Below, in pieces: positions 60,171 to 63,895 of a stretch of 64,000 bases of DNA. Source of the stretch: Sandaracinus amylolyticus (lineage in GTDB: Bacteria > Myxococcota_A > Polyangia > Polyangiales > Sandaracinaceae). The stretch covers positions 3,658,001 through 3,722,000 of the forward strand of contig NZ_CP070225.1 in the NCBI RefSeq assembly GCF_021631985.1, in the 5' to 3' direction. A program made the position numbers and the translations under genes. Numbering within the stretch: position 1 is the first letter of the stretch; each line of letters opens with the position of its first letter. The notes below the pieces were generated by a model that searched no databases, was not told where the DNA came from, and saw only the letters and a program-made list of their open reading frames with translations.

Positions 60171-61211
60171 TCAGTTGCGGCAGTGGAGATCGAAGCCGCA
60201 CATGAGCCCGGTGGCACACGGGCTCGCGGGCGGTGCGCAGCAGAGCTCGCCGTCGCCCCCGCAGCGCTCGCACTGCGTGAGCCCGCAGGTGTAGCCGACA
60301 TCGCAGCCGCGGCCCGTGCAGCAGAGCTCGCCGTTGCCGCCGCACGCGCGGCACGTGCCCAGCAGATCGCACACGTGCCCGGCGCCGCACACGCTCGACG
60401 CGCAGCACGGCTCCCCGTTGCTGCCGCACGAGTTGCGGCACGTCCCCGCGTCGCATCCGAGCGCGCCGTCGCACACGTCGCCCGCGCAGCACGGCTCGCC
60501 GTTGGCGCCGCAGTCGCTGCAACGACCGCCGTTGCACACGAGCGTGTCCGAATCGCACGCGGTGCCGCCACAGCAAGGCTCGTCCTTCGCGCCGCAGCCG
60601 ACACAGGTCCCGTCGTCGCACGCGAGCGCGACGTCGGCGCACGCATCGCCGTCGCAGCAGACCTGCCCCGACGCGCCGCACGGAAGGCACGTGATCCCGC
60701 GATCGCACACCAGCCCCGTCGCGCATCCGCGCTCGGGACAGCACGCGAGATCGCGCTCTCCGCACGCGGTGCACGCCCCTTCGATGCAGCCGAGCCCGGT
60801 CGCGCACGGCGTCGCGCCCGCGCAGCACGTCTCGCCGTCCGCGCCGCACGACACGCACCGCTCGCCATCGCACGCGAGCCCGGTCGCACACGCGCCCGTC
60901 GAGCCGCAGCAGGGCTCGCCCTCGGCGCCGCACCCCATCGTCGCGGTGCACGAGCCGCCCTCGCAGGTCAGCCCGTCGGCGCACGCAGGGCAGCACTCGC
61001 CCGGAGGGCACACGCACGAGCCCGCGACGCACGTGGTGCCGTCGGTGCACTGGACCGCGCACGTGGCGCTCGCATCGAGATCGCCCGGCGCAGCGTCGCC
61101 GCGACGCGGTGGAACCACCCCGACCCGCTCGAGCGCGCAGCCCCCCACGATCGCCGCGACCACCGCGACGATCGCCGCGTCGCGCACCCAGATCAGCGCC
61201 GTCGACGCCAT
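60171..61211 (-). CDS. Cysteine-repeat lipoprotein, nine repeats
   Basis: A 346-residue lipoprotein (signal DAAIVAVVAAIVGGC, C near residue 25). The body is nine tandem repeats of about 26 residues built on CGxxGExCCxGxxC-xxGLxC-xxGxC, each with six or so Cys, plus an irregular Cys-rich start. About 60 Cys in total suggest disulfide-knotted domains as in EGF/knottin-like surface proteins. Starts at ATG 61211 and overlaps the LPMO-like gene by 19 bases. Function unknown. Confidence 0.85.
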   Translation of the reverse strand: MASTALIWVRDAAIVAVVAAIVGGCALERVGVVPPRRGDAAPGDLDASATCAVQCTDGTTCVAGSCVCPPGECCPACADGLTCEGGSCTATMGCGAEGEPCCGSTGACATGLACDGERCVSCGADGETCCAGATPCATGLGCIEGACTACGERDLACCPERGCATGLVCDRGITCLPCGASGQVCCDGDACADVALACDDGTCVGCGAKDEPCCGGTACDSDTLVCNGGRCSDCGANGEPCCAGDVCDGALGCDAGTCRNSCGSNGEPCCASSVCGAGHVCDLLGTCRACGGNGELCCTGRGCDVGYTCGLTQCERCGGDGELCCAPPASPCATGLMCGFDLHCRN

Positions 61212-61846
61212 CGCAACAGTCCTCCGATCACGATCGGGAGCAGCGCCACCGACCACCTCTCGTCATCACCGGGCATCGCGATCGCGCAACCCCCGCCCTC
61301 GCTCGACGTGCCGCCGTCCACGCCCACGCCCGCGTCCGATTCTTCGTCGACGCATCCGGGGCTCGCGCAGCGCAGCGCGACGTCGGCGCACTGGTAATAG
61401 TAGGGATCCGAGCTCCCGTACATCACCTGGATCAGCTGCAGCGTGCAGCGCTCGCACTCGACACGCGGCAGCGTGACCTCGAGCTCGTAGCTCCCTCCGC
61501 CGCCGCGATCCGTGATGTCGTCCGCGAGCACCTCGACGCCCGCCGGCGTGATCCACGCGCCGTCCATCGACACCGGCGCGTCGAGATCGTCGTCACCGTC
61601 GCGATCGAACGCGATGCGGTAGTGACCGTCGTGATCGACCGTCTCGTCCCAGCGCACCACGACGCGCTGCCCCGGCTCGAGCACCGTCACACGATCGGTG
61701 CGCGTCCCACCGGCGCGCCCGCACGGCGCTTCCTTCTGCTCGGTCGCCGGATATCGCGACGTGGGGCTCGTCATCGTGACGTGCGCGCGCACGGTCGCTG
61801 GCAACAGCGCAGCGAGCGCGGCGAGCAGGACGACGGTCCGACGCAT
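61193..61846 (-). CDS. LPMO-like secreted protein with MYXO-CTERM-like tail
   Basis: A 217-residue protein. The signal peptide (VVLLAALAALLPATVRA) is followed by mature HVTMTSPTSRYP, so His1 is free to form a copper histidine brace as in lytic polysaccharide monooxygenases. This group (SCE4755-like) has Cys pairs (VECERC, QCADVALRC, ASPGC). The C-terminus GGGCAIAMPGDDERWSVALLPIVIGGLLRWRRRR is cut to GGGCAIAM then a membrane segment and RRRR, which resembles MYXO-CTERM sorting tails. ATG 61846 chosen; the longer ATG gives no signal. The enzyme role is predicted, not shown. Confidence 0.82.
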   Translation of the reverse strand: MRRTVVLLAALAALLPATVRAHVTMTSPTSRYPATEQKEAPCGRAGGTRTDRVTVLEPGQRVVVRWDETVDHDGHYRIAFDRDGDDDLDAPVSMDGAWITPAGVEVLADDITDRGGGGSYELEVTLPRVECERCTLQLIQVMYGSSDPYYYQCADVALRCASPGCVDEESDAGVGVDGGTSSEGGGCAIAMPGDDERWSVALLPIVIGGLLRWRRRR

Positions 61847-61878
61847 CGCGCGATGATACCCGCGGCTGCCGGAGATGG

Positions 61879-61971
61879 TCAGGAGCGCCGTGCGTCGAGC
61901 CACGGAGCGGCGGCGATCACGCCGATCGCGACCACGAAGAACACGGCCCAGAACACTTCGTTCGCCGGCAC
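61879..61971 (-). CDS. Possible 30-residue membrane micro-protein
   Basis: A GTG-started frame of 30 codons, third positions mostly G or C, encoding EVFWAVFFVVAIGVIAAAPW in its middle, a single membrane helix with Arg-Arg at the end. It lies 32 bases upstream of the LPMO-like gene on the same strand. It has no strong ribosome site, so its reality is open; it may also be a leader. Confidence 0.35.
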   Translation of the reverse strand: MPANEVFWAVFFVVAIGVIAAAPWLDARRS

Positions 61972-61994: not shown

Positions 61995-62022
61995 TTGACA
62001 GTCGGAAGCTCCTCGCTAATCT
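61995..62022 (+). promoter_or_regulatory. Sigma-70-type promoter of tRNA-Leu
   Basis: TTGACA (61995-62000) and TAATCT (62017-62022) with a 16-base spacer, 13 bases before the tRNA 5' end. This is the clearest consensus promoter in the window. Confidence 0.8.
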
Positions 62023-62035
62023 CTGCCTCCCCCAC

Positions 62036-62118
62036 GCGGAAGTGGCGGAATTGGCAGACGCACCAGACTAAGGATCTGGCGGGTAACCCCCGTGGAGGTT
62101 CAAGTCCTCTCTTCCGCA
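62036..62118 (+). tRNA. tRNA-Leu (AAG)
   Basis: An 83-nt class II tRNA with acceptor GCGGAAG/CUUCCGC, discriminator A, a D-arm, a T-arm (GGAGG/CCUCU) and a long variable arm (CGGG/CCCG). The anticodon arm reads CCAGA-CUAAGGA-UCUGG, giving anticodon AAG. Leu identity is supported by the long arm and A73. CCA is not encoded. An A34 Leu tRNA is unusual in bacteria. Confidence 0.95.
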
Positions 62119-62134
62119 GATTCGTAAGGCGCAG

Positions 62135-62177
62135 GCCCCCGTTCGAACTCGTTTCGGACGGGGGCTTTCGTCTTTCC
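62135..62177 (+). terminator. Intrinsic terminator of tRNA-Leu
   Basis: GCCCCCGTTCGAA pairs with TTCGGACGGGGGC (13 bp including one G-T) across a 5-base loop, followed by TTTCGTCTTT. This is a textbook terminator 17 bases after the tRNA 3' end. Confidence 0.85.
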
Positions 62178-62186
62178 GGGGCTGTG

Positions 62187-62306
62187 TTTCCGCCGCAGCG
62201 TCGTGGTTTCCGCCGCAGCGTCGTGGTTTCCGCCGCAGCGTCGTGGTTTCCGCCGCAGCGTCGTGGTTTCCGCCGCAGCGTCGTGGTTTCAGCCGCAGCG
62301 TCGTGC
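62187..62306. repeat. Tandem repeat, six copies of a 20-bp unit
   Basis: Exactly 20 bp steps at 62187, 62207, 62227, 62247, 62267 and 62287; unit TTTCCGCCGCAGCGTCGTGG. Five copies are identical and the last begins TTTCAGCC. There are no spacers, so it is not a CRISPR. It directly follows the tRNA-Leu terminator. The stretch 62307-62488 shows no gene and only a lone TTGACC at 62452. Confidence 0.95.
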
Positions 62307-62488: not shown

Positions 62489-62857
62489 ATGTTCCAGGAA
62501 GTCCTGAAGGACGTCGTCGATCGCACCGAGGGTGGAATCGCCGGGCTCGTGATGGGCTTCGACGGGATCACCGTGGACTCGTACGTCAGCCCCGAGGCCG
62601 CGGGCGTGCTCGAGGTCGAGACCGTCGGCATGGAGTACAGCGTGATCCTCAAGGAGATCCGCAAGGCCGCCGAGATGCTCGACGCCGGCGCGGCGCGCGA
62701 GGTCGCGATCCAGGCCGAGCGGCTCACGACCGTCATCCGCCTGATCAACGACGAGTACTTCGTCGCGCTCGCGATGAAGCCCGAAGGCAACTACGGCAAG
62801 GCTCGCTTCCTCCTGCGCACCAGCGCGAGCAAGCTCGCCGCCGATCTCACCGTCTGA
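62489..62857 (+). CDS. Roadblock/LC7-domain protein (MglB-like)
   Basis: A 122-residue protein. [21 protein letters not shown] at the start and [20 protein letters not shown] then [26 protein letters not shown] form the roadblock fold that acts as a GTPase partner, as MglB does for MglA in myxobacteria. No small GTPase gene is adjacent. ATG 62489. It is followed by aroQ after seven bases, so they may share a transcript. Confidence 0.85.
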
Positions 62858-62864
62858 TCACCAC

Positions 62865-63368
62865 GTGACCACCACGAACGTGAGCTCCGCTGCGCCGGAG
62901 CTGCGCGTGCTCGTGCTCCACGGGCCGAGCCTCAACCTCCTCGGCAAGCGCGAGCCCGGCGTCTACGGCACCCGCGATCTCGCCTCGATCGAGCAAGAGC
63001 TCGTCGCGCTCGGTCGCGATCTCGGCGCGACGATCGAGAGCCGCCAGAGCAACCACGAGGGCGTGCTGATCGACTGGATCCACGACGCCGGATATCCGAA
63101 GGATCCTTCGGGTTCGCGCGTCGACGGGATCGTGATCAACCCCGGCGCGTATACGCACACCTCGATCGCGATCCGCGACGCGATCGCCGCGACCAATCTC
63201 CCGGTCGTGGAAGTGCACCTCTCGAACGTGCACGCGCGCGAGCCGTTTCGTCGTCGCTCGATGATCACGCCGGTCTGCGTCGGTGTGATCGCGGGCTTCG
63301 GTCCGCACAGCTATGCGCTTGGCTTGCGCGCGCTGGTGGGCTACGTACGGGCCCGCGTTTCGCCCTGA
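62865..63368 (+). CDS. aroQ: 3-dehydroquinate dehydratase, type II
   Basis: A 167-residue enzyme of the shikimate pathway. Blocks are [17 protein letters not shown] (active Tyr loop), [46 protein letters not shown]. It dehydrates 3-dehydroquinate to 3-dehydroshikimate. The start GTG 62865 adds about 15 residues before the family start. It lies upstream of accB, an arrangement common in bacteria. Confidence 0.96.

Positions 63369-63421: not shown

Positions 63422-63891
<470 letters not shown>

Positions 63892-63895
<4 letters not shown>

Follow-up and report, generated by a model that had tools for sequence, protein, structure and literature searches.

An old tRNA-Leu(AAG) gene of Polyangiales that stands in for two ordinary leucine tRNAs in Sandaracinus and is very likely edited to inosine

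Bacterial tRNA-Leu(AAG) genes have been reported nearly all from Bacilli (PMC13249217), and unmodified A34 in a tRNA with this anticodon reads mainly CUU in Escherichia coli (PMC11066159). A leucine tRNA gene with anticodon AAG in Sandaracinus amylolyticus raises the question of which codons it serves, whether its A34 is edited to inosine and how old it is. We analyzed it within a stretch of 64,000 nucleotides (herein the window) of a 10.96-Mb genome (G000; two contigs, 72% GC). ARAGORN calls an intact gene and the Rfam model RF00005 matches it over its full length at 54.5 bits (cut-off 29); together with the identity of the gene in four genomes, this bears out the sequence-only reading of the window, which had named a tRNA-Leu(AAG) with loop CUAAGGA and A34. 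The long variable arm and discriminator A are those of leucine tRNAs, and the CCA end is not encoded in the gene.

62036..62118, + strand: tRNA-Leu(AAG) gene, 83 bases (ARAGORN; Rfam RF00005; identical in G001, G002 and G008)
62068..62074, + strand: anticodon loop CTAAGGA, positions 32-38, with anticodon AAG at 62070-62072 (from the sequence; fits the TadA motif YUAMGRA)

The census of leucine tRNAs that the sequence-only reading had proposed (56 Rfam tRNA matches in G000, with anticodons from ARAGORN) gave a canonical set of AAG, CAG, CAA and UAA, one copy each. Neither this census nor a Leu-tRNA covariance model recovered a tRNA-Leu(UAG) in G000, so the UAG isoacceptor from which the gene had been said to differ by a single base does not exist there. 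Canonical tRNA-Leu(GAG) is also absent from G000, whose sole GAG anticodon sits in a cluster of odd tRNAs. Across ten Sandaracinaceae genomes, the covariance model returned members of the same four-anticodon set together with odd array tRNAs and found UAG in none; G005 has neither a GAG nor a UAG leucine tRNA by this model. AAG was recovered in nine of the ten (all except the draft G004), and the close relatives, whose anticodon had been put forward as a check on a recent switch, thus largely share it. As UAG is absent in all of these genomes, the CUN box rests on AAG (predicted IAG) and CAG. In Sandaracinus, tRNA-Leu(AAG) takes the place of two leucine tRNAs of the ordinary kind, and most leucine codons are therefore probably read by a single edited tRNA.

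Codon use, which the sequence-only reading had also singled out, shows how much depends on this tRNA. In 36 open reading frames of the window, picked by GC3, leucine is encoded by CTC 853 times, CTG 483, TTG 19, CTT 13, CTA 3 and TTA once; CUC makes up 853 of the 1372 leucine codons (62%) and CUA is almost unused. About 62% of leucines would therefore depend chiefly on tRNA-Leu(AAG), if it is edited. The preference for CUC is common to the order and independent of AAG status. Indeed, mean CTC/(CTC+CTG), from about 20 kb per genome, is 0.61 in genomes with AAG against 0.69 in those without (p 0.05), a difference opposite in direction to the shift of Lactobacillales; a codon shift linked to AAG, as in that order, was thus not seen.

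Comparison with known TadA substrates points to editing. The loop CUAAGGA fits YUAMGRA, the substrate motif of Streptococcus pyogenes TadA (PMC11472039), and differs only at position 35 from the loop of the tRNA-Arg(ACG) of G000, CUACGGA. Among 38 relatives, the AAG loop is CUAAGGA in 19 of 19 matched, the CAG loop UUCAGGU in 35 of 35 and the GAG loop UUGAGGU in 14 of 15; a Fisher test on these loop types overstates independence because the compared tRNA sequences are related. With positions 32 and 38 left free, AAG loops phylum-wide comprise 45 of CUAAGGA and four of UUAAGGA (all YUAAGGA). An engineered A34 tRNA no longer acquires inosine in E. coli after certain changes at positions 32, 37 and 38 (PMC11066159). 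The AAG tRNA of genome G075 (L292 175-257; G075:C373) has the GAG-type body that is common in family f12, to which G075 belongs, but departs from it at three loop positions together: 32 (U to C), 34 (G to A) and 38 (U to A). Judged from its sequence, this gene seems to have acquired the same loop independently, and it is better evidence for an editing signature than loop counts across related sequences.

The putative editing enzyme is encoded once in G000 (C1:7231330-7231896, - strand), within about 1.3 kb of tRNA-Arg(ACG); it passes the NCBIfam equivalog NF008113 (162.7 bits, cut-off 150) and has the HAE and PCxxC motifs. tRNA-Leu(AAG) is a substrate of streptococcal TadA both in cells and in vitro (PMC11472039; PMC13249217), whereas E. 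coli TadA does not edit the streptococcal tRNA efficiently (PMC11472039); a TadA of the right specificity is thus a prerequisite of editing. We found no TadA residues that cleanly divide genomes with AAG from those without; columns 20, 61, 116, 144 and 152 (E. coli numbering) show a weak, phylogenetically confounded association. In G001, a block of tRNA-Ser and tadA occurs in two copies of equal score (C1:149-2099 and 599548-601498), the first of which lies right at the beginning of the genome's one contig; the copies may reflect a real duplication or a contig-end assembly artefact. A 74-base tRNA beside the block is probably tRNA-Arg(ACG). With a loop that fits the motif, an encoded TadA and CUC as the main leucine codon, it is very likely that position 34 is edited to inosine, and the earlier claim that editing would be needed to read CUC is supported as regards efficient reading.

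We hypothesize, with high confidence in the explanation as a whole, that this is a working leucine tRNA, edited to IAG, in a CUN box served by an I34 and C34 pair. The transcript of the single-copy gene would be charged with leucine, and the housekeeping TadA would deaminate A34; the resulting tRNA-Leu(IAG) would read CUC, CUU and CUA, and tRNA-Leu(CAG) would read CUG, an arrangement like that of the arginine CGN box of most bacteria. The gene would be the counterpart of tRNA-Leu(GAG), old in the order and at the same locus with a different anticodon arm, and Sandaracinaceae would have lost UAG after AAG was present, a loss made tolerable because IAG would read CUA and because CUA codons are nearly absent. 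Besides the limited range of E. coli TadA and the want of a cleanly dividing TadA residue, two observations weigh against this explanation: AAG status has no link to more CUC, and the odd-cluster GAG-anticodon tRNA of G000 and G001, if functional, would be able to decode CUC and CUU.

The latter tRNA is the basis of an alternative that we consider improbable, in which the AAG tRNA stays unedited, its A34 reading CUU and weakly CUC, and CUC is read mainly by the GAG-anticodon tRNA. This tRNA, present and identical in the two species (G000 C1:9952769-9952855; G001 8326219-8326305), speaks for the alternative, but it lies among odd, low-scoring tRNAs (G000 C1:9952406-9952978, where a further CAG-anticodon tRNA, lacking a long arm, is also found), and it has A at position 18 and G at 55 in place of the G and U of canonical leucine tRNAs, so the usual G18-U55 contact is lost. 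An unedited tRNA would also leave CUA without a reader and G005 without any GAG or UAG tRNA to turn to, and AAG loops retain C or U at 32 and A at 38, like TadA substrates.

The odd cluster itself (L291 7407-10783; G000:C1:9952406-9955782) contains Phe-GAA, Arg-GCG, Leu-GAG, Leu-CAG without a long arm, Asp and Glu tRNAs; the four compared between G000 and G001 (L281) are identical, and a Ro60/Rsr-like gene (vWA_Ro60 and TROVE matches) lies among them, within about 1 kb after the GAG tRNA. Other family members have large arrays in which some 19 or more unusual tRNAs cover many specificities (L244, G008:C318; L285, G007:C126), including extra leucine tRNAs without long arms, which look like accessory tRNA arrays.

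The age of the gene can be read from its neighbors, since the order tRNA-Leu, 122-residue protein, aroQ, accB is conserved among relatives.

62489..62857, + strand: gene for a conserved 122-aa protein, first in the syntenic block (adjoins an AAG or GAG tRNA in many relatives)
62865..63368, + strand: aroQ, type II 3-dehydroquinate dehydratase, syntenic marker (Pfam PF01220)
63422..63895, + strand: accB-like biotin carboxyl carrier protein, syntenic marker (Pfam PF00364)

The 122-aa protein has no Pfam match at 0.001 and is roadblock/LC7-like by eye only. An AAG tRNA lies 99-371 bases upstream of its gene in G000, G001, G008, G011, G014, G016, G017 and G035, and a GAG tRNA lies 139-235 bases upstream in G034, G023 and G046 (genus g19, order Polyangiales); in other genomes a leucine tRNA stands near the same genes in another orientation, or elsewhere. 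Additionally, GGCATACGC is common to the AAG tRNAs of G014, G017 and G018 and the GAG tRNA of G034, and their acceptor stems are nearly the same. Given the shared locus and the shared body, AAG and GAG are best taken as two forms of a single gene, with a different anticodon arm. A small tree built from the 122-aa protein, AroQ, AccB and TadA places g19 among genomes with AAG, which suggests either a reversal to GAG or several gains of AAG.

These data also bear on the proposal that the anticodon switched recently, by point mutation, from UAG in the Sandaracinus lineage, which we regard as very improbable. Some UAG tRNAs of the order do have the loop CUUAGGA, one base from CUAAGGA; however, AAG is common to at least 10 families of the order, at one locus in many, that locus is GAG in g19, and other families have UAG alongside AAG, as a gene of its own. 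Synteny and distribution thus rule out the recent switch that the sequence-only reading had suggested, and its descent from UAG, a gene absent from Sandaracinaceae, finds no support; an ancient exchange of the anticodon arm with UAG may have occurred. The tRNA-Leu(AAG) gene is old in Polyangiales.

Sequence flanking the gene was considered together with its conservation.

61995..62000, + strand: TTGACA, candidate -35 element (similarly spaced TTGAC in 8 of 8 orthologous loci)
62133..62167, + strand: terminator-like hairpin 3' of tRNA-Leu(AAG) (1 found against 0.6 expected in shuffles)

All 83 bases are the same in G001 and G002 (genus Sandaracinus) and in G008 (another genus), so a sequencing error at A34 is ruled out. 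The weak -10 match (TAATCT, 62017-62022) left a scan for the sigma-70 consensus without a promoter call on the tRNA strand, although TTGAC is conserved; G001 has a similar hairpin 3' of its orthologous tRNA. That the gene is a pseudogene, an error or a tRNA-like sequence is scarcely credible, nothing having been found in favor of this and the full-length Rfam match, the identical sequence in four genomes, the kept TTGAC and the hairpin all standing against it. Between the hairpin and the 122-aa gene lie six tandem copies of a 20-base unit (GTTTCCGCCGCAGCGTCGTG; 62186-62305, 99% alike). The gene adjoining the tRNA on the other side (61193-61903, - strand) matches the BIM1-like copper-binding and LPMO_10 (lytic polysaccharide mono-oxygenase) families and was not found near the tRNA in the other fetched loci.

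Beyond the order, a pattern search found AAG in 49 of 282 sampled Myxococcota species, a lower bound because the strict pattern missed leucine tRNAs with GGCATACGC (AAG in G014, G017 and G018; GAG in G023, G034 and G046), so that AAG may be present in some genomes scored without it; absences within Sandaracinaceae were rechecked with the covariance model. A wider pattern excluded short variable arms, and GAG in genus g46 lies outside its reach. A fixed-loop scan also found AAG in Verrucomicrobiota (Akkermansiaceae, Luteolibacter, Prosthecobacter), Planctomycetota (Pirellulaceae, Rhodopirellula) and MAGs of Actinobacteria/Acidimicrobiia, which demonstrates distribution but not convergence, since positions 32 and 38 were fixed. 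Where three CUN-reading leucine tRNAs were recovered from verrucomicrobial, planctomycetal or actinobacterial genomes, they are AAG, CAG and UAG; UAG is thus retained in those genomes. The occurrence of AAG in Myxococcota and these other lineages widens the Bacilli-centered distribution (PMC13249217) and suggests that inosine decoding of leucine in bacteria is not peculiar to Bacilli.

We further propose, with less assurance than for the decoding scheme but judging it probable, that Sandaracinaceae have no effective reader of CUC, CUU and CUA other than Leu(IAG), so that TadA would be needed for the commonest leucine codon as well as for arginine, and that A34 evolved repeatedly in bacteria other than Bacilli, always together with the same set of loop changes (32, 34 and 38). 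Natural comparisons are provided by GAG and AAG at one locus, by g19 and its neighbors, and by the AAG of G075 on a GAG-type body; these bear on how TadA gains a substrate and on the contribution of positions 32 and 38. A family without UAG is, moreover, a case in which inosine should be needed for CUA, of which lactic acid bacteria offer no example.

The tRNA-Leu(IAG) of Lactobacillales (Oenococcus oeni, S. pyogenes, S. mutans) likewise has an A34 leucine tRNA in place of GAG and the same motif YUAMGRA (PMC11472039; PMC13249217). The replacement of GAG holds for Sandaracinus, where the locus is the one that is GAG in g19 and no canonical GAG remains in G000. TadA editing has been shown in Lactobacillales, whereas in Sandaracinus we infer it; Lactobacillales are AT-rich, keep tRNA-Leu(UAG) and show leucine recoding (PMC13249217), whereas Sandaracinus is GC-rich, lacks UAG and has CUC as its main leucine codon with no codon shift accompanying AAG. 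The pairing of one I34 with one C34 tRNA in a four-codon box resembles bacterial tRNA-Arg(ICG) and tRNA-Arg(CCG) (PMC3711424; PMC4041420). The loops are nearly alike, but the Sandaracinus tRNA is a class II leucine tRNA with A instead of C at position 35, and A35 is poorly accepted by E. coli TadA in the streptococcal tRNA (PMC11472039). Eukaryotic tRNA-Leu(IAG), made by ADAT2/3, also reads U-, C- and A-ending codons (PMC8266599); ADAT2/3 is, however, a heterodimer lenient on the loop (PMC11472039), in contrast to the bacterial TadA and constrained loop of Sandaracinus, and eukaryotes also retain a U34 tRNA for the box (PMC13249217). tRNA-Leu(IAG) is hence already known, mainly from lactic acid bacteria and streptococci, and the Sandaracinaceae decoding set (IAG and CAG, no UAG) is a variant of it; both AAG in these lineages and the lack of UAG extend what the literature examined describes.
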